From the NCBI GenBank assembly GCA_033344875.1, contig JAWPMO010000001.1, positions 496,001-560,000 on the forward strand: DNA of 64,000 nt, read 5' to 3'. Below, piece after piece: positions 3,292-52,364 of this stretch. The number at the start of each line of letters is the position of its first letter. Position 1 is the first letter of the stretch. The notes beneath the pieces are model-generated. The model saw nothing but the letters and a program-made list of their open reading frames with translations. It was not told where the DNA came from and ran no database searches. The position numbers were made by a program, and so were the translations under genes. The DNA is from Ilumatobacteraceae bacterium. GTDB lineage: Bacteria; Actinomycetota; Acidimicrobiia; Acidimicrobiales; Ilumatobacteraceae.

Positions 3292-4209
3292 GTGAGCCGG
3301 TCGCGTCCCACCCTCAGCGACGCCGCAGCACTCGGCGGGTACCGGTTGGCGGCGCTCGCAGCTCGCGGGCTGCCCGGGTTCGCAGCGCAGGGCCTCGCTC
3401 CGGCGCTCGGGTTCGGTGCCAGCTTCGCCAGCCTCGAACGCCGCTCGATGATCGAGCGGCATCTCCGCCGAGCCGACCCGACGATCGGCGGCGTCCGACT
3501 CAGGCGCTCGGTGCAGGAAGCGTTCGACTCGTACACCCGCTACTGGCTCGAGAGTTTTCGGCTGCCGCACCTGAACGGGCGCGCCGTCGAGCGAGGGATG
3601 CGCGTGCAGGGCTACGAGCACGTCGTGGAGGCGCTCGACGCCGGCAACGGAGTGATCCTCGCATTGCCCCACCTGGGTGGCTGGGAATGGGCCGGACGCT
3701 GGCTGGTCGAGCGTGGTCACGGCATCACCGTGGTGGTCGAGCAGATCGAACCACCCGAACTGTTCGATTGGTTCGTCGATCTGCGTCAGAAGCTGGGCAT
3801 GAACGTGGTCGCGCTGGGGCCCTCAGCCGGGCGCGAGGTGCTCGCCGCCCTGAAACGCAACGAGGTGGTGTGTCTGCTCAGCGATCGAGACATCCAGCGC
3901 ACCGGTGTCGAGGTCGAGTTCTTCGGTGAAGTCACCACGCTGCCGGCCGGGCCGGCCACGCTCTCGCTGCGCACCGGCGCACCGTTGTTGCCGACGGCGG
4001 TGTACTTCACCGATCGCACCGACGGCCACCTCGGCGTGGTCAGGCCGCCGGTCGACATCAGCCGATCCGACGACGGTCTGCGGGCCGATGTCGCCAGGGT
4101 GACCCAGGCGCTCGCCGACGAACTCGAGCACCTGATCCGACGGGCGCCGCACCAGTGGCACCTCTTCCAGCCCAACTGGCCGAGCGATCCCGGGTACGCG
4201 GCGGGCTGA
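3292..4209 (+). CDS. LpxL/HtrB-family acyltransferase, PatA-like (PIM acylation)
   Basis: A 305-residue acyltransferase of the lysophospholipid/lauroyl transferase fold. The catalytic HxxxxE motif is in ALPHLGGWEWAGRWL, with a conserved segment around CLLSDRDIQRTGVEVEFFG. By position after PIP synthase it corresponds to mycobacterial PatA, which acylates the mannose of PIM; the precise acceptor is inferred. GTG at 3292 is chosen because it lies 7 nt after the pgsA stop; the frame is open further upstream only inside pgsA. Confidence 0.88.
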   Translation: MSRSRPTLSDAAALGGYRLAALAARGLPGFAAQGLAPALGFGASFASLERRSMIERHLRRADPTIGGVRLRRSVQEAFDSYTRYWLESFRLPHLNGRAVERGMRVQGYEHVVEALDAGNGVILALPHLGGWEWAGRWLVERGHGITVVVEQIEPPELFDWFVDLRQKLGMNVVALGPSAGREVLAALKRNEVVCLLSDRDIQRTGVEVEFFGEVTTLPAGPATLSLRTGAPLLPTAVYFTDRTDGHLGVVRPPVDISRSDDGLRADVARVTQALADELEHLIRRAPHQWHLFQPNWPSDPGYAAG

Positions 4210-22878: not shown

Positions 22879-23129
22879 CCGGTCGCCGCTGACGAGCCGA
22901 CGACTTCTCGGGGCGGGGTTCCCAGGGCAGGGCTGGAGGACCTCGACGGTGACGCAGGAAGTCCGACAGACGCGGTGGTAACGAAACGCACGTCGGCTAC
23001 TGTTTGGCTCCCAGTGCAGCAACTGGTCACGCCCTGTCTCGAGTGGTTCGGCGCCATGCGTTCGTCACCGCTGAGCGAGACCGGAAGCGGAGCGGTGCGC
23101 TGCGGAGTTCGAAGGCGGGAAGTCACATC
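22879..23129 (+). other. 251-nt region upstream of the giant secreted protein gene
   Basis: No gene seen. A -10-like TACTGT lies at 22998-23003, which would leave a 5' leader of about 120 nt, long for this window. Upstream, 22952-22995 can fold into a hairpin (CCGAC pairing with GTCGG around GCG/CGC). No known riboswitch consensus could be matched by eye. Confidence 0.4.
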
Positions 23130-26100
23130 ATGAAGAGGTTCCAACGTCACGCTGCGGTGCTCGGTGTGGTGGCGATGATGGCAGGTGGTCTAGTGGTCGC
23201 GGTCCCGACCAACGTCGCGCAGGCAGCCGGGCCGCCCGTTGCATCGTTGCCGACCGACAATCCGGCGAACTGGACCCCGAACGTGTTGGACGGTCAGGTC
23301 AACTCGATCTGGCAGTTCGGGAACAAGGTCGTCATCGGCGGTACGTTCACGCAGGTCGCCGACTCGGACATCAACGGCGGAGTGGTCCACGATCAGGCGT
23401 ACGTGGCAGCTTTCGACGCGGCGACGGGCGTGGTCGACACCGGGTTCGACCCGGTGCTCAACGACGGCGTCGAAGTCGTCATCCCCGGCACCGACGCCAA
23501 CACGTTGTTCATCGGCGGTGACTTCAACACGGTCGACGGTGAGAATCGCCGCAAGGTCGCCAAGCTGAACGTGGCCGACGGTTCGCTGGTCGAGGCGTTC
23601 GACATCAACGGGATGAACGGGCGGGTCCGCGACCTGCGCCTCGTCGACACCACGTTGTACGCCGCCGGCCTGTTCACCGTCGTCGGCGGCGCCGACCGCG
23701 AGTATCTCGCATCGTTCGACGCCGCTTCCGGCGACGTCACGGGCGACCTCGACCTCGACTTCGCAGGCCTGCACAGCGGCGGGGTGGGCAAGGTGATCAA
23801 GATCGAGACCACCCCCGACGCCGGCCGGATGCTGATCACCGGCAACTTCACCTCGATCGAAGGTGTCGAGCGTGACCAGGTCGCGCTGATCGACCTGAGT
23901 ACGACTCCGGCGACGGTCAGCGACTGGCAGACCGATTGGTACGCCGCCGAGTGCGCATCGGCCTTCGACAGCTACACGCGCGACCTCGACATCTCGGCCG
24001 ACGGCGCCTACGCGATCGTGGTGACGACCGGCGCTTACCGGGCCGGGCGCTCGTGCGACACGGTGTCGCGACTCGAGCTCGACGACGAGTCGGCCGGAGT
24101 GACGCCGACGTGGGTCAGCTACACCGGCGGCGACACCAGCTACTCGGTCGAGATCCACGACGGGGTCGCCTACGTCGGCGGTCACATGCGCTGGTTCAAC
24201 AACCCGTACGCAGGCGATCGACACGGCGCCGGGGGCGTCGCCCGTGCGGGCATGGGTGCGCTCGACGTCGTCACCGGGCTGCCCTTCTCGTGGAACCCGA
24301 CCCGCACCCGGGGGATCGGGCTGTTCGACTACCACGTCACCGCACAGGGCATCTGGGCCGGCAGCGACACCGACCGCTGGAACGACGAGCTACGGATGAA
24401 GCTCGCGTTCTTCCCGTGGACCGGTGGGACGACGGTGCTGGGCAGCGAGATCGGCGACCTGCCGGCCGACATCTACCAGCTCGGCAACGAAGCGGGCACC
24501 ACCGGCACTCCCGATCAGACCGTGCTGTACCGCGTCAATGCGGGCGGCCCGGCACTCGCGTCCGCCGACGACGGCCCCGCTTGGGAGGCCGACACCTCGA
24601 CCCTGTCGAGTTACCGCAACAGCGGCAGCAACGCCTACACCGCGCCGGACGGCCTGGCGGTTCCCCAGCTCGACTCGGCCGTGCCTGATGGCGACATGGA
24701 TCGCCCACCGGCGCATCTCTGGACGACCGAGCGGTGGGACCCCAGCGGCGGCACGGAAATGCAGTGGAACTTCCCCGTCGACCCCGGGGCCGACCTCACC
24801 GTTCGGATCTTCCTCGCGAACCGCTGCACCTGTACCAACGGTGGCAACGAGCGGATCTTCGACGTCCAGATCGACGGCGTCACGCGGGTCGACGACCTCG
24901 ACCTGTCCAAGACCGTGGGCCACGATGTCGGGACCGTCCGCTCGTTCGACATCACCGCCGATGCCGACGGGGTCGACATCGACTTCATCCACGGTGCCGA
25001 GGACAATCCGCTCGTCAGCGGCATCGAGATCATCGACCGCGGCACCGCGGCTTCGGGCACGCTCGGAACCCAGGACGACGTCCGGACGTTGACGTGGAAC
25101 GGCGCGGATGCGCCGGTGTCGACGCCGATCCCGAACACCACCGTTCCGTGGCGGACGGTGCGCGGTGCGTTCATGGTCAACGCCGACCTGTTCACCTTCC
25201 ACGCCGACGGCACGCTCATGAAGCGCACGTTCGACGGCAGCGACTTCGGCCCTGGTCGCTCCGTCGACGGCTGGTCGAACGACATCATGGCCGACATGCC
25301 GACGATCAGCGGCATCTTCTTCGACCCCGACACCGCGAGCGTCTACTACACCGTCGAGGGAGAAGGCGCTCTGTACACCAGGACGTTCCTGCCCGAATCG
25401 GGTGTGTTGAACGCCCAGGCGACCACCGTGGCCGCCGGTGACGTGGGCGCGCTCGATCCGACACGGGTCGCCGGGATGTTCCTGGCCGACGGTCGTCTGT
25501 ACCTCGTCGACGACGCATCCGGCGAACTGCTCTCCATGGCCTGGGCCGACGGTGCGCCGGTGGGCCCGACATCGCTCGCCGACGACACCGCGGACTGGCG
25601 CGCCCGGGCGCTCTTCCTTGCCACTGCGCCCAACGTGAACGAGGCGCCGACGGCGGTGATCGCCGCACCGACCTGCGACGACAACGTGTGCGAGTTCGAC
25701 GGCACGGGTTCGAGCGATGTCGACGGCACGATCGTGTCGCACCAGTGGGACTTCGGCGACGGTGGTCTGGACGGCACCGGCGCGAGCACGTCGCACACGT
25801 ACGGCGCTGCGGGTGCGTACACCGTGACCCTGACGGTCACCGACGACGACGGAGCGATCGGAACCACCGACGTCGTCGTCAACCCGACGGCTCCGCCGAA
25901 CGAGGCACCGACCGCAGTGGCCGCCGAGCCGAGTTGTGTCGACAACCTGTGCACGTTCGACGGTACGGGTTCGAGCGATGCCGACGGCACGATCGTGTCG
26001 TACCTCTGGTTCTTCGGTGATGGTGAGACGGGTACGGGTTCTTCGCCGTCGCACACGTACGAGGCGGGCGGTTCGTACACGGTCACGTTGATCGTGACCG

Positions 26101-27806
26101 ACGACGAGGGTGCGACCGGTACGACCGATGCGGTGGCCGATCCGACGGATCCGCCGAACGCGTCGCCGACGGCGGTGATCGGCGAGCCGATTTGTGTCGA
26201 CAACGTGTGTGAGTTCGACGGTACGGGTTCGAGCGATGTGGACGGCACGATCGTGTCGTACCTCTGGTTCTTCGGTGATGGTGAGACGGGTACGGGTTCT
26301 TCGCCGTCGCACACGTACGAGGCGGGCGGTTCGTACACGGTCACGTTGACGGTGACCGACGACGAGGGTGCGACCGGTACGACCGATGCGGTGGCCGATC
26401 CGACGGATCCGTCGAACGCGGCGCCGACCGCGTCGGCCGCCGGCAGCTGCACGGCCAACGTGTGTGAGTTCGACGGCACGGGTTCGAGCGATGTCGACGG
26501 CACGATCGTGTCGTATCTCTGGGACTTCGGTGACGGCGAGACCGGCAGCGGTCCGTCACCGTCGCACAGCTACGGCACGGGCGGCGAGTACACCGTCACC
26601 CTGACGGTGACCGACGACGACGGTGCGACCGGCAGCGACGAGCTCGACGTCGCTCCTGCTGCCGCGGACGACCTGGTGTCGGTGGTGCCGGCTCGGTTGT
26701 TGGAGTCGCGTCCTGGTGAGTTGACGGTGGATCACGAGTTCGAGGGGATCGGGCGTCGTGGGGCTGGGTCGGTGACGGCGTTGAAGGTGACGGGTCGTGG
26801 TGGTGTTCCGGCCGATGCTGATGCGGTGTTGTTGAACGTGGCGGCGGTGTTGCCGGATGGTTTGGGGTTCTTGACGGTGTATCCGTGTGGTGTGGATCGG
26901 CCGTTGGCGTCGAACGTGAACTATGGGCCGGGTGATGTGGTGCCGAATGCGGTGTTGGCGAAGGTGGGTGATGGTGGGCGTGTGTGTATCTACACGTTGA
27001 CCGGGACCGACATCATCGCCGACGTCAACGGGTACGTGCCGGCTGGTGGTTCACCGGTGTCGGTGGTGCCGGCTCGGTTGTTGGAGTCGCGTCCTGGTGA
27101 GTTGACGGTGGATCACGAGTTCGAGGGGATCGGGCGTCGTGGGGCTGGGTCGGTGACGGCGTTGAAGGTGACGGGTCGTGGTGGTGTTCCGGCCGATGCT
27201 GATGCGGTGTTGTTGAACGTGGCGGCGGTGTTGCCGGATGGTTTGGGGTTCTTGACGGTGTATCCGTGTGGTGTGGATCGGCCGTTGGCGTCGAACGTGA
27301 ACTATGGGCCGGGTGATGTGGTGCCGAATGCGGTGTTGGCGAAGGTGGGTGATGGTGGGCGTGTGTGTATCTACACGTTGACCGGGACCGACATCATCGC
27401 CGACGTCAACGGGTACGTGCCGGCTGGTGGTTCACCGGTGTCGGTGGTGCCGGCTCGGTTGTTGGAGTCGCGTCCTGGTGAGTTGACGGTGGATCACGAG
27501 TTCGAGGGGATCGGGCGTCCTGGGGCTGGGTCGGTGACGGCGTTGAAGGTGACGGGTCGTGGTGGTGTTCCGGCCGATGCTGATGCGGTGTTGTTGAACG
27601 TGGCGGCGGTGTTGCCGGATGGTTTGGGGTTCTTGACGGTGTATCCGTGTGGTGTGGATCGGCCGTTGGCGTCGAACGTGAACTATGGGCCGGGTGATGT
27701 GGTGCCGAATGCGGTGTTGGCGAAGGTGGGTGATGGTGGGCGTGTGTGTATCTACACGTTGACCGGGACCGACATCATCGCCGACGTCAACGGCTACGTG
27801 CCGTAG
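23130..27806 (+). CDS. Giant secreted protein: propeller, malectin-like, four PKD domains, three Cys-paired repeats
   Basis: A 1558-residue exported protein. A signal peptide (about residues 1-33, cleaved after AQA) leads to a beta-propeller-like N-terminal region (to about 490). A malectin-like carbohydrate-binding domain (about 500-655, with FRIFLANR-type strands and DVQIDGVTRVDDLDL) and a second propeller-like stretch (to about 830) follow. Four PKD domains begin near residues 835, 923, 1009 and 1095, each with a CxxxxC pair and a DFGDGE or FFGDGE turn. Three 127-residue repeats close the protein (from about 1182). No sortase signal or membrane anchor is seen. Likely a surface adhesin or polymer-binding protein. 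ATG 23130 is preferred because the signal peptide starts there. Confidence 0.9.
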   Translation: MKRFQRHAAVLGVVAMMAGGLVVAVPTNVAQAAGPPVASLPTDNPANWTPNVLDGQVNSIWQFGNKVVIGGTFTQVADSDINGGVVHDQAYVAAFDAATGVVDTGFDPVLNDGVEVVIPGTDANTLFIGGDFNTVDGENRRKVAKLNVADGSLVEAFDINGMNGRVRDLRLVDTTLYAAGLFTVVGGADREYLASFDAASGDVTGDLDLDFAGLHSGGVGKVIKIETTPDAGRMLITGNFTSIEGVERDQVALIDLSTTPATVSDWQTDWYAAECASAFDSYTRDLDISADGAYAIVVTTGAYRAGRSCDTVSRLELDDESAGVTPTWVSYTGGDTSYSVEIHDGVAYVGGHMRWFNNPYAGDRHGAGGVARAGMGALDVVTGLPFSWNPTRTRGIGLFDYHVTAQGIWAGSDTDRWNDELRMKLAFFPWTGGTTVLGSEIGDLPADIYQLGNEAGTTGTPDQTVLYRVNAGGPALASADDGPAWEADTSTLSSYRNSGSNAYTAPDGLAVPQLDSAVPDGDMDRPPAHLWTTERWDPSGGTEMQWNFPVDPGADLTVRIFLANRCTCTNGGNERIFDVQIDGVTRVDDLDLSKTVGHDVGTVRSFDITADADGVDIDFIHGAEDNPLVSGIEIIDRGTAASGTLGTQDDVRTLTWNGADAPVSTPIPNTTVPWRTVRGAFMVNADLFTFHADGTLMKRTFDGSDFGPGRSVDGWSNDIMADMPTISGIFFDPDTASVYYTVEGEGALYTRTFLPESGVLNAQATTVAAGDVGALDPTRVAGMFLADGRLYLVDDASGELLSMAWADGAPVGPTSLADDTADWRARALFLATAPNVNEAPTAVIAAPTCDDNVCEFDGTGSSDVDGTIVSHQWDFGDGGLDGTGASTSHTYGAAGAYTVTLTVTDDDGAIGTTDVVVNPTAPPNEAPTAVAAEPSCVDNLCTFDGTGSSDADGTIVSYLWFFGDGETGTGSSPSHTYEAGGSYTVTLIVTDDEGATGTTDAVADPTDPPNASPTAVIGEPICVDNVCEFDGTGSSDVDGTIVSYLWFFGDGETGTGSSPSHTYEAGGSYTVTLTVTDDEGATGTTDAVADPTDPSNAAPTASAAGSCTANVCEFDGTGSSDVDGTIVSYLWDFGDGETGSGPSPSHSYGTGGEYTVTLTVTDDDGATGSDELDVAPAAADDLVSVVPARLLESRPGELTVDHEFEGIGRRGAGSVTALKVTGRGGVPADADAVLLNVAAVLPDGLGFLTVYPCGVDRPLASNVNYGPGDVVPNAVLAKVGDGGRVCIYTLTGTDIIADVNGYVPAGGSPVSVVPARLLESRPGELTVDHEFEGIGRRGAGSVTALKVTGRGGVPADADAVLLNVAAVLPDGLGFLTVYPCGVDRPLASNVNYGPGDVVPNAVLAKVGDGGRVCIYTLTGTDIIADVNGYVPAGGSPVSVVPARLLESRPGELTVDHEFEGIGRPGAGSVTALKVTGRGGVPADADAVLLNVAAVLPDGLGFLTVYPCGVDRPLASNVNYGPGDVVPNAVLAKVGDGGRVCIYTLTGTDIIADVNGYVP
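25636..26668 (+). repeat. Four tandem PKD-domain coding units (about 255-258 bp)
   Basis: Units begin near 25636, 25900, 26158 and 26416. The second and third are almost identical at DNA level over the segment coding for GTIVSYLWFFGDGETGTGSS, exactly 258 bp apart; the fourth matches at 255 bp. The protein unit carries a Cys pair (C-x4-C) at its start. Confidence 0.85.
26675..27055 (+). repeat. 127-residue repeat, copy 1 (381 bp)
   Basis: Direct tandem repeat with a period of exactly 381 bp, in frame. It encodes a domain with ARLLESRPGE near the start, DADAVLLNVAAV in the middle, YPCG and VCIYTL (one Cys each) and the closing TDIIADVNGYVP. Leucine is almost always TTG, unlike the rest of the gene. 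Confidence 0.95.
27056..27436 (+). repeat. 127-residue repeat, copy 2 (381 bp)
   Basis: Same sequence as copy 1 as far as I can see by eye over its full length. The linker AGGSP joins it to the next copy. Confidence 0.95.
27437..27803 (+). repeat. 127-residue repeat, copy 3 (terminal, shortened by the stop)
   Basis: Identical to copies 1-2 except a G-to-C change at 27520 (Arg to Pro) and a silent change near the end, where NGYVP is followed directly by the stop codon. Confidence 0.95.
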
Positions 27807-50309: not shown

Positions 50310-52364
50310 TCAGAGATAGACGCCGTTGACGTCGACGATGATGTGCGTCGAGTTCAACGTGTAGACGCACAACTCGCCCTCGCTCGACAGCTTCACCATC
50401 GCACCGTTCGCCGCTGCGCCCTGCGACGGGAAGATGTTCACCGTCGAGGTCGCCGGACGCTTCCCACAGGGGTAGGCGGTCAGGAAGGAGGCGGCGAGCG
50501 GTTCGGCGGCCGTGAGGTTGAGCGACACCGCCGTGGCGTCCTCTGGCACGCCGCGGGAGCCGGCGATCTTGAGCCGGACGACCTGGCCGCCGCCGACGCG
50601 TCCACCGTTGGTCGACTCGTTGAAGGCCCGGGTGGTCGAACGGCTGTCGAACATGCGGATGGGGTCGAGCGGCTGGAAGTCGAGCCCGTCGCCGTCCGAG
50701 AAGTAGCCGGTGTAGTCGACGATCACGTCGGTGGCGACCAGCGACTGGACGCAGACCTTGCCGGATCCGTCGACCGGGACGACGACGCTGTTCGGGCGGA
50801 TCTCGCCGGCCGCGTAGTTGACCGTCGAGATCTCGGTGCCGGCGGGGAGACCGCACGGGTAGACCTTGAGGAAGCCGGCGCCCGAAGGCTGTTCGACCGT
50901 GACGTTGAGTGAGACGCCGGTGGCGTCTGCGGGTGCCGCGCGGTCGGCGCCGGCGACCCGGATCACGCGCTCTTCGCCGGCGCGGAGTCGCCGTTGACCG
51001 GCCGCACGAGTGTCGAGGAGTCGCTCCGGGGTCTCGGGGGTGAAGGTGCTGTCGGCGTCGTCGTGGAAGAAGCCGTTGACGTCGATCACGACGTCGGTCG
51101 ACACCAGCGAGTAGAGGCACATCTTGCCGCCCTTGAGCGGCACGACCGCCTGATTGGCGACGAACTCGCCGGGCCGGAAGTTGAGCGTGCTGACATCAGG
51201 ACGGTCGGTGGTGCAGTTGTAGGCGGTGATGAACCCGTAGCCGTCTGGGTTCACGGCCACGAAGTTCGCGCTGACGGCCATGACGTCGGCCGGTGCCACG
51301 TCGATCTCGACGACCTTGCCGGCCTGGAGACGGGTGGTGCCCTGCTTGACGCGACTGTCGACGAGGCGGTACGGGGCGACCGGTTCGAAGCGGACCTCGT
51401 CGCCGACGACCGACGTGTCGACCGCACCGCCGGGGGTGGACGGGGCGTTCTTCGGGGAGGCCGACAGCGGAGCGTCGCGGTCGACGGTGAACGACCAGGT
51501 CACGTTGCCGCCGTTGCTGTCGACGGTCGCGGTGTAGACACCGTCGGCGAGCACCTCTCGGGGCATCACGACCACGGCGTTGTCGCCGTCGAGGATCGAG
51601 CGGGCGGTGCCGTCGGACACGTTGCCCTTGTGGAGGGTGCAGGTCTCGATCGGGCCGTTCGGGCCGGTGAGGGACGAGTTGGCCGACGTGACGTCGTTCG
51701 GCAGCATGGCGATCAGCGGGAGGCCGGCGCTACCGCTCCATCCGCACATCGTCAGCGGGTTGGGGAACTCGGTGATGAAGCTGTGGAGGGGGACCGTCGC
51801 GCCGTCGCCGGGGAACAGGATCGGGGTCGCGGGCCGAGGTGCGCCGGCATCGATGCCCCGGATGACATCGAGCGTGCCACCCGAGTGCCACGAGGTCGGC
51901 GTATCGCTCTCGGCGCACAACCCGAAGCCGCTGGTGCGGAGGTTGTGGCGGAGGATGCCGATCGCGTGGAAGGGCCCGGTCATCCAGAGTTCGACATGGT
52001 TGCGGGCGGTGGCGGTCACCGAACTGCTGACCGCGACGTTGCCGTGGTTGCCGGCCACGTCGCCGCCAGGGGTGTATCCGGGGCGGCCCTCGATCTCGTC
52101 GTGGGAGATGCCGTTCTGCAGCATGTAGCAGGAGTGGGCGCGGGCTTCGGCCGACCAGGTCGTGTTCTCGCTGACCGGCTGGAGGCCGGACATGGCGCGA
52201 TACGTGTTGACGGTCGACATCCAGTCGTCGCCGGCGACGTCGGCTGTTGCGGTGCCGGGGAGGGAAGCGACGAAGGTACCGACTGCCAGGAACATCGTGG
52301 CGGCGACGATGTGGCGCCCCCGCCGACGGCGCGCGTGAGTCGGGAGTGTGGAGGCTTCGGTCAC
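50310..52364 (-). CDS. Secreted CAP-domain protein with three Cys-paired repeats
   Basis: A 684-residue exported protein: signal peptide (about 1-42, ending TATA), CAP (SCP/PR1) domain at about 45-175 (STVNTYRAMSGLQPVSENTT, SCYMLQNGISHDE, HAIGILRHNLRTSGFG), and an Ig-like stretch at about 180-300. Three repeats follow at 326-434, 440-556 and 561-684. Each repeat has an RLVDSR/RLLDTR/MFDSR opening, a YPCG-like Cys and a second Cys (MCLYSL, VCVQSL, LCVYTL), and a DVNG-type close. These are the same family as the repeats of the 23-28 kb protein. CAP proteins are extracellular and may bind lipids or cleave proteins. Confidence 0.88.
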   Translation of the reverse strand: MTEASTLPTHARRRRGRHIVAATMFLAVGTFVASLPGTATADVAGDDWMSTVNTYRAMSGLQPVSENTTWSAEARAHSCYMLQNGISHDEIEGRPGYTPGGDVAGNHGNVAVSSSVTATARNHVELWMTGPFHAIGILRHNLRTSGFGLCAESDTPTSWHSGGTLDVIRGIDAGAPRPATPILFPGDGATVPLHSFITEFPNPLTMCGWSGSAGLPLIAMLPNDVTSANSSLTGPNGPIETCTLHKGNVSDGTARSILDGDNAVVVMPREVLADGVYTATVDSNGGNVTWSFTVDRDAPLSASPKNAPSTPGGAVDTSVVGDEVRFEPVAPYRLVDSRVKQGTTRLQAGKVVEIDVAPADVMAVSANFVAVNPDGYGFITAYNCTTDRPDVSTLNFRPGEFVANQAVVPLKGGKMCLYSLVSTDVVIDVNGFFHDDADSTFTPETPERLLDTRAAGQRRLRAGEERVIRVAGADRAAPADATGVSLNVTVEQPSGAGFLKVYPCGLPAGTEISTVNYAAGEIRPNSVVVPVDGSGKVCVQSLVATDVIVDYTGYFSDGDGLDFQPLDPIRMFDSRSTTRAFNESTNGGRVGGGQVVRLKIAGSRGVPEDATAVSLNLTAAEPLAASFLTAYPCGKRPATSTVNIFPSQGAAANGAMVKLSSEGELCVYTLNSTHIIVDVNGVYL

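Follow-up and report, generated by a model that had tools for sequence, protein, structure and literature searches.

Why the end of one gene should be written in codons unlike those of the remainder of that gene is the question raised by a 64-kb stretch of DNA from a bacterium of the family Ilumatobacteraceae. The stretch, which is referred to as the window, covers positions 496001-560000 of contig C1 of genome G000, a single contig of 4,968,626 bases. The gene in question (23130..27806, plus strand), hereafter the target gene, encodes a secreted or surface protein that ends in three copies of a predicted jelly-roll domain, preceded by propeller-like repeats, a malectin domain, and four PKD domains. 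Its start at 23130 was chosen by eye and precedes a signal-peptide-like stretch, and the longest open reading frame (ORF) begins at 23004. Odd codons are routinely taken as foreign DNA. Here they are best explained as the footprint of DNA repair on repeats, which is legible from the sequence alone.

Codon skew in arrays of near-identical copies

The repeats were identified by Tandem Repeats Finder (TRF) at 26675-27803 with a period of 381, 3.0 copies, and 99% matches. Unit 1 (26675..27055) and unit 2 (27056..27436) are identical. Unit 3 (27437..27803) runs to the stop codon at 27804-27806 and differs at two of the 367 compared bases, both of which are G to C. The jelly-roll domain copies matched by the hidden Markov model (HMM) profile are located at 26688..27038, 27069-27419, and 27450-27800, and all units and copies are on the plus strand. 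The three near-identical 381-bp repeats that the initial annotation had described are therefore real, and its account of their unusual codons also holds. In the three domains, Leu is encoded by TTG in 36/36 codons compared with 9/71 in the remainder of the target gene, Asp by GAT in 21/27 compared with 22/136, and Gly by GGT in 27/54 compared with 50/151. The GC content at third codon positions (GC3) is 0.74 compared with 0.86, and the third-position C content (C3) is 0.17 compared with 0.52. The CAP-domain gene (50310..52364, minus strand) provides a control inside the window, for it carries three diverged copies of the same domain (about 50319-51344) that use ordinary codons, as had been claimed (C3 0.61, TTG 2/21). 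The GC skew at 26750-27249 is +0.42 and the AT skew is -0.41, so the target strand is G/T-rich beyond a mere preference for TTG.

Both skews contribute, so the axis of the deviation is keto bases (G/T) against amino bases (A/C). It was measured as K3 = (G+T-A-C)/N over third codon positions. The target K3 of +0.65 compared with a median of -0.21 deviates beyond chance, as single copies of diverged arrays have a K3 standard deviation of 0.14 and deviate by more than 0.35 in 5/286 cases.

A domain profile was built from the repeat within the same genome (G000) and iterated, and it matches 147 domains in 58 ORFs of G000. Three complete genomes were compared, namely G000, G001 (same genus), and G024 (same family), and three single-copy regions of G024 (1482755, 1858575, and 2343484) were left out of the ORF set. 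Arrays were considered skewed when their K3 lay over 0.35 away from the median of -0.21. Arrays with a pair of copies of at least 85% DNA identity were considered homogenised, which applies to 21 among the 131 arrays of two or more copies. Skew is found in 18/21 homogenised arrays compared with 3/110 other arrays (Fisher p 2.8e-16), and this coupling is robust (p <=1.3e-12) at all 15 threshold pairs. The mean K3 of copies in leading-strand arrays is -0.16 to -0.20 below 80% identity (-0.16 at 0.7-0.8), +0.34 at 80-90%, and +0.67 at 90% or above. Relatives do not use these codons for the domain across all their genes, for the skew is found mainly in arrays of near-identical copies. An assembly artefact is unlikely, since G001 and G024 are independent single-contig genomes that show the same pattern.

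The skew stays within the array and goes with alike copies. Keto bases make up 0.83 of third positions in the linkers and about 0.9 in most of the domain, but 0.44-0.54 on the upstream side and 0.47 on the downstream side. In 4/4 mixed arrays, the two copies that resemble each other most are more keto than their odd neighbour, such as in L068 (pair +0.25 and +0.20, odd copy -0.61) and L140 (pair +0.62 and +0.67, odd copy -0.28). The deviation takes both directions, from the low C3 of the target to L045, where C3 is 0.92 and third-position G is 0.01. The GC content of the homogenised leading-strand arrays (0.61-0.70) is at or below that of most diverged arrays.

Replication direction sets the sign. 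The dnaA gene is positioned at 3.247 Mb in G000, 4.681 Mb in G001, and 0.001 Mb in G024. Among the skewed arrays, 21/21 have G and T enriched on the leading strand, with 16 keto arrays in leading-strand genes and 5 amino arrays in lagging-strand genes. The least certain are L109, L042, L108, and L045, which lie at least 0.9 of the way toward the assumed terminus, and the agreement is 17/17 when these four are set aside. The homogenised arrays have a mean of +0.59 on the leading strand (n=16) and -0.64 on the lagging strand (n=5), and the diverged arrays have means of -0.19 (n=41) and -0.25 (n=55), respectively. Among single-copy ORFs of the complete genomes, 5/36 are skewed and every one has the predicted sign.

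Gene conversion, which the initial annotation had offered as one origin of the repeats, is supported by two observations. Homogenised arrays are far more similar within their genome than to their reciprocal-best counterparts elsewhere, and two arrays have just two of their three copies near-identical. In eight reciprocal-best pairs with flanks that are 34-57% identical, one member is homogenised and skewed and the other is neither (L052-/L115-, L078/L110, L093/L153, L123/L141, L148+/L057, L045/L165, L058/L148-, and L108/L079). The state thus switches among lineages while the gene stays in place. Both members are skewed in a further reciprocal-best pair, L096/L140.

The force looks like a biased choice between alleles rather than one mutation type, because it is blind to G versus T and splits keto from amino bases evenly. 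For the codon-family analysis, arrays were picked by identity alone and those with just two alike copies were excluded, which left 13 leading-strand and 5 lagging-strand arrays. The shift in keto:amino log odds on the leading strand is +2.46 (standard error 0.09) and varies little among the 19 codon families (Q 26 on 18 degrees of freedom). Within the keto class, G and T keep their ratio (mean difference -0.04, r 0.96). Third positions change most, and the keto fraction also rises at codon position 1 (0.59 to 0.72) and position 2 (0.47 to 0.52). Amino acids shift as well, with Val at 18.4% versus 12.4% in keto arrays and Thr at 15.5% versus 9.8% in amino arrays, and the keto and amino sets behind these amino-acid and codon tables were chosen partly by K3, so that the tables are descriptive. 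The pattern is firm in Ilumatobacteraceae, and we have very little doubt about it.

Copy number and predicted fold of the domain

The number of copies was counted in the 167 domain-bearing ORFs of the three complete genomes. Three copies are present in 129 ORFs, one in 36, two in 2, and more than three in 0. The array ends at most 30 residues from the stop in 90/129 three-copy ORFs, and in the remaining ones it is more internal, frequently just after the N-terminus. Homologues on Streptomyces plasmids have three full C-terminal copies in 6/6 cases, these being six of the nine plasmid records with the domain.

AlphaFold2 (AF2) places the three copies of the target in one compact unit with a mean predicted local distance difference test (pLDDT) of 95 and a predicted template modelling score (pTM) of 0.90. 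The best matches of this model among solved structures are engineered single-chain trimers, namely the single-chain C1q head (5hkj; Z 14.1, 285 residues, 4.4 A), single-chain APRIL-BAFF-BAFF (4zch; Z 13.1, 311 residues, 5.3 A), and single-chain adiponectin (4dou; Z 11.6, 291 residues, 5.5 A), with a sequence identity of 5-6%. The nearest structures beyond C1q/TNF-like trimers all have Z below 10. The array is predicted to be a natural single-chain C1q/TNF-like jelly-roll trimer, in the sense of likeness of fold and not of family membership. It differs from the engineered trimers, which it resembles in predicted fold, in being natural, bacterial, and without detectable sequence relation to them. 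The sequence search of the Protein Data Bank (PDB) gave no clear match (best E 0.29), and Pfam gave 0 families for the target copy and one weak BIg21 match among 60 domain members. The domain family is large and is absent from the Pfam copy used.

The initial annotation had suggested selection for DNA identity that lets copy number vary. This candidate was rejected, because in the three complete genomes exactly three copies predominate, no ORF has more, and this fits a three-fold jelly-roll unit. The copy number is most likely a structural constant rather than a dial, and single-copy members perhaps form homotrimers.

Proposed NucS-biased gene conversion and rival explanations

The mismatch repair proteins of these genomes point to a possible mechanism. 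NucS_C (PF01939) is present in 3/3 complete genomes and MutS_V (PF00488) in 0/3. NucS of M. smegmatis is reported to repair G-G, G-T, and T-T in vivo and to leave the other mismatches tested unrepaired, where C/C was not delivered (PMC11551767). Specificity for keto:keto mismatches is described for enzymes from M. smegmatis, C. glutamicum, and archaea (PMC11551767, PMC8228993). NucS probably requires the sliding clamp and acts on short patches (PMC11551767, PMC11551744). Further work reports that homeologous recombination at 90% identity is 10-fold higher without NucS (PMC8228993), that gene conversion is severely defective in Haloferax lacking nucS (PMC11276520), and that the lagging-strand template is the preferred site for oligonucleotide recombination in mycobacteria (PMC11551744).

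We propose that the three copies would be retained since the array encodes the predicted single-chain trimer, and that tandem, similar copies would overwrite each other by gene conversion and so remain identical. This conversion would not be neutral, as leading-strand G/T alleles would spread and A/C alleles would be lost at every codon position. A donor strand from one copy would pair with the lagging-strand template at a second copy, and this template has the same sequence as the leading strand. If the template is keto and the donor carries the amino allele, a keto:keto mismatch would form and NucS would restore the template. If the template is amino and the donor carries the keto allele, the amino:amino mismatch would be unseen by NucS and the keto allele would pass. 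The range of NucS would split keto from amino bases because one polarity of heteroduplex gives keto:keto mismatches and the other gives amino:amino mismatches, and repeated conversion would ratchet the leading strand to G/T. A toy simulation of this rule reached K up to 0.98 and reproduced the sign and the size of the skew, and unbiased conversion stayed near -0.2. NucS-biased gene conversion is on balance the best explanation, likelier than any rival and unproven. We infer that NucS acts as a filter, that most annealing involves the lagging-strand template, and that repair restores the template in preference to the donor. NucS bacteria may more generally have an undescribed strand-directed keto drive that acts on any near-identical repeat and rewrites codons and amino acids regardless of function, a broader proposal that we advance tentatively and would not yet bet on.

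Repeats from elsewhere served as controls for the rival explanations. Ten adhesin genes were scanned, of which eight, all from Gammaproteobacteria, have repeats of at least 90% identity. The mean absolute deviation in these gammaproteobacterial windows is 0.09, which equals that of diverged windows, compared with 0.66 here in the same scan; the windows overlap and are non-independent, MutS is confirmed for E. coli and assumed for the others, and the comparison ignores replication direction.

The first rival is a strand-dependent mutagenic form of recombination or repeat copying, for example error-prone gap filling on a constant strand, that adds keto substitutions without any choice between alleles. 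Mutational strand bias is known to make leading strands G/T-rich as a general trend. The coupling to exchange and to replication direction fits such a process equally, and the residual copy differences fail to separate it from biased conversion: among 2:1 differences in leading-strand arrays, 93 sites have a keto majority and an amino minority and 62 sites have the reverse. However, the unchanged G:T ratio stands against it, as does a shift that is about equally strong in four-fold, NNY, and Glu codons; a mutagen such as cytosine deamination would lift T over G. The C:A ratio is also about unchanged in the amino arrays (mean difference -0.23), and the near-identical gammaproteobacterial repeats lack a comparable effect. 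We consider this process unlikely, with a chance that deserves to be kept in mind.

The second rival places the skew first. G/T-rich strands that fold weakly would be favoured by RecA and so homogenise, or unstructured repeats would be selected for fewer deletions. When a fork collapses, RecA would sit on the leading-sense strand. RecA filaments are reported to be most stable on TGG/TG-rich DNA (PMC3763553). However, the eight gammaproteobacterial genes are not comparably skewed although RecA is assumed to be normal there, the preference of RecA alone leaves the near-absence of skew below 80% identity unexplained, and homogenised unskewed arrays exist. These points make the skew an improbable starting point.

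The initial annotation had proposed a segment from a different source, in which foreign DNA with other codon habits is inserted and then amplified. The local composition is indeed sharply unlike the remainder of the gene. A foreign donor was nevertheless rejected as very improbable, since the flanks of eight pairs are reciprocal-best yet the skew is one-sided, just the alike copies within one array are skewed, and keto and amino forms divide according to the replication strand; these opposite forms, set by replication direction, exclude a single donor. Selection on codon choice through the mRNA or translation of these proteins, which would fit third positions changing most, was rejected with equal firmness, as the sign tracks the replication strand and not the coding strand, the odd copies on the same mRNA are unaffected (L068 and L140), and the amino-acid composition shifts too (Val and Thr).

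Several observations weigh against NucS-biased conversion as the whole explanation. Each target unit ends in ~16 codons that are C-rich despite the identity or near-identity of the units (26999-27040 in unit 1, and the matching positions in the other two). Diverged arrays dip likewise at this end of the unit (0.24 compared with about 0.4), and the C-rich end is not explained by the mechanism. Three arrays are homogenised yet below the skew threshold, namely L048 (-0.35), L050 (-0.50), and the mixed array L068, and three are skewed without homogenisation, namely L095 (identity 0.78), L145 (0.73), and L162 (0.81). Skewed single-copy ORFs exist, of which four sit in two clusters of similar genes (L094 and L144) and the fifth is L142. 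The shift on the lagging strand is smaller and less even (-1.01, standard error 0.12, Q 34 on 18 degrees of freedom), and the terminus was assumed to lie opposite dnaA. The eight control genes have a per-gene shift of about +0.06 to -0.24. Neither L295 (0.91 pair) nor L281 (0.86 pair), both arrays on Streptomyces plasmids, is skewed. In the drafts, the pairs of L311 (0.91) and L181 (0.94) are mildly shifted, and L187 has one copy at +0.60 with an identity of 0.76. A mycobacterial (M. tuberculosis) preprint suggests reduced activity of NucS in homologous recombination (PMC13061034). Among ten tandem repeats outside the domain with known direction, three stay flat, namely L136, L145, and the target gene's own PKD stretch (z 0.8 as a whole), and L099 (66-bp period) is opposite (z -2.4). 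The other six are skewed as predicted, namely L071, L143, L085, L144, and L148 (z 2.0 to 3.5) and L175. The PKD repeat of the target orthologue in G064 (K -0.07) was excluded from these ten, its direction being unknown. The rule is strong for the jelly-roll domain and weaker, with an exception, for other repeats.

Three known systems resemble NucS-biased conversion in part. GC-biased gene conversion is likewise directional, works via conversion between similar sequences, and mimics selection. It differs in that keto bases rather than G+C are favoured here, GC is not raised, and the favoured class is tied to the replication strand with coding strands either way. The NucS/EndoMS repair of Actinobacteria and Archaea is present in these genomes, and its known preferred set of G:G, G:T, and T:T (PMC8228993, PMC11551767) is exactly the keto:keto set. 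That literature, in the parts available, concerns mutation avoidance and anti-recombination, and no account of strand-wise steering of repeat composition was found in those parts. The conversion hotspots among paralogues of M. tuberculosis also occur in a NucS organism, and their authors propose that recombination-associated repair asymmetries could reshape the composition of paralogous regions (PMC13061034). The changes enriched at those hotspots are T>C/A>G, which the authors connect with a lowered action of NucS, and no keto/amino or replication-strand pattern was found in the available part of that preprint (PMC13061034). Among the best-matching papers, judged by their titles and the start of their abstracts, no description of a strand-directed keto bias in homogenised repeats was found.

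If the NucS step is true, these arrays would record, in nature, which polarity heteroduplexes take at replication forks. The action of NucS in recombination and the strand that it trusts would become accessible to a simple orientation test, and codon-based tests for gene transfer or selection could fail in the repeats of Actinobacteria.

Draft genomes, orthologues, and neighbouring repeats

Pairs of near-identical copies were also identified in genomes where the replication direction is unknown. The effect is strong in G147, which belongs to another class and has a 0.99 pair at -0.63, and in G044, with a 0.97 pair at -0.59 and -0.60. In G184 it is moderate in one array, where the 0.88 pair reads +0.27 and +0.18 and the odd copy -0.17, and mild in a second, whose 0.91 pair is at just +0.12 and +0.11. 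Drafts of the same genus have 0.99 and 1.00 pairs at +0.8 and -0.9, and 0.89 and 0.94 pairs that are mildly shifted. The loci examined in Skermanella, Halobaculum, cyanobacteria, Salinivibrio, and the Eleftheria plasmid contain no near-identical repeats.

The contig survey covers 79 loci, nearly all of them from draft metagenome bins, and it is of limited use as identical arrays are likely collapsed in short-read assemblies. The mean |K3+0.2| still climbs with copy identity, being 0.12 where identity is under 0.7 and 0.63 where it is at least 0.9. Skew is found in 12/18 single-copy ORF pieces, and 9 of these 12 lie on pieces truncated by the end of the locus sequence used. The draft loci L179, L189, L190, L191, L197, and L318 have single-copy domains that are clearly skewed, and these are probably triple arrays collapsed in assembly. 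L179 of G064, whose flank is 74% identical, is the true orthologue of the target and has one keto copy, which is probably a collapsed array. The orthologue in G002 (L180, flank 64%) has no domain match, and at its C-terminus, as judged by eye, PKD-like domains alternate with two copies of an unrelated repeat of ~200 residues.

Segments of neighbouring paralogues are G/T-rich on the leading strand at L094 (97% identity, K +0.22) and L144 (75-87%, K +0.09 to +0.27). At L094 in G001, two adjacent single-copy genes (2280-2949 and 3461-4129) have a common stretch of 670 bp with 96.6% identity and K3 of +0.50 and +0.51. No other single-copy member from the three complete genomes is strongly keto. 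At L175:2713-3784 in G000 (about 1.977 Mb), a 522-bp repeat is present in about two copies that are 100% identical, with a leading-sense K of +0.21 and a background standard deviation of 0.06.

No Rfam match was found anywhere in the 64-kb window. Upstream of the target repeats, the four tandem PKD domains of the same gene occupy 25637..26632 on the plus strand with a period of 258 and 83% match. The middle two of these domains are the most alike by eye and mildly G/T-rich, with a mild G/T excess at 25.9-26.5 kb.

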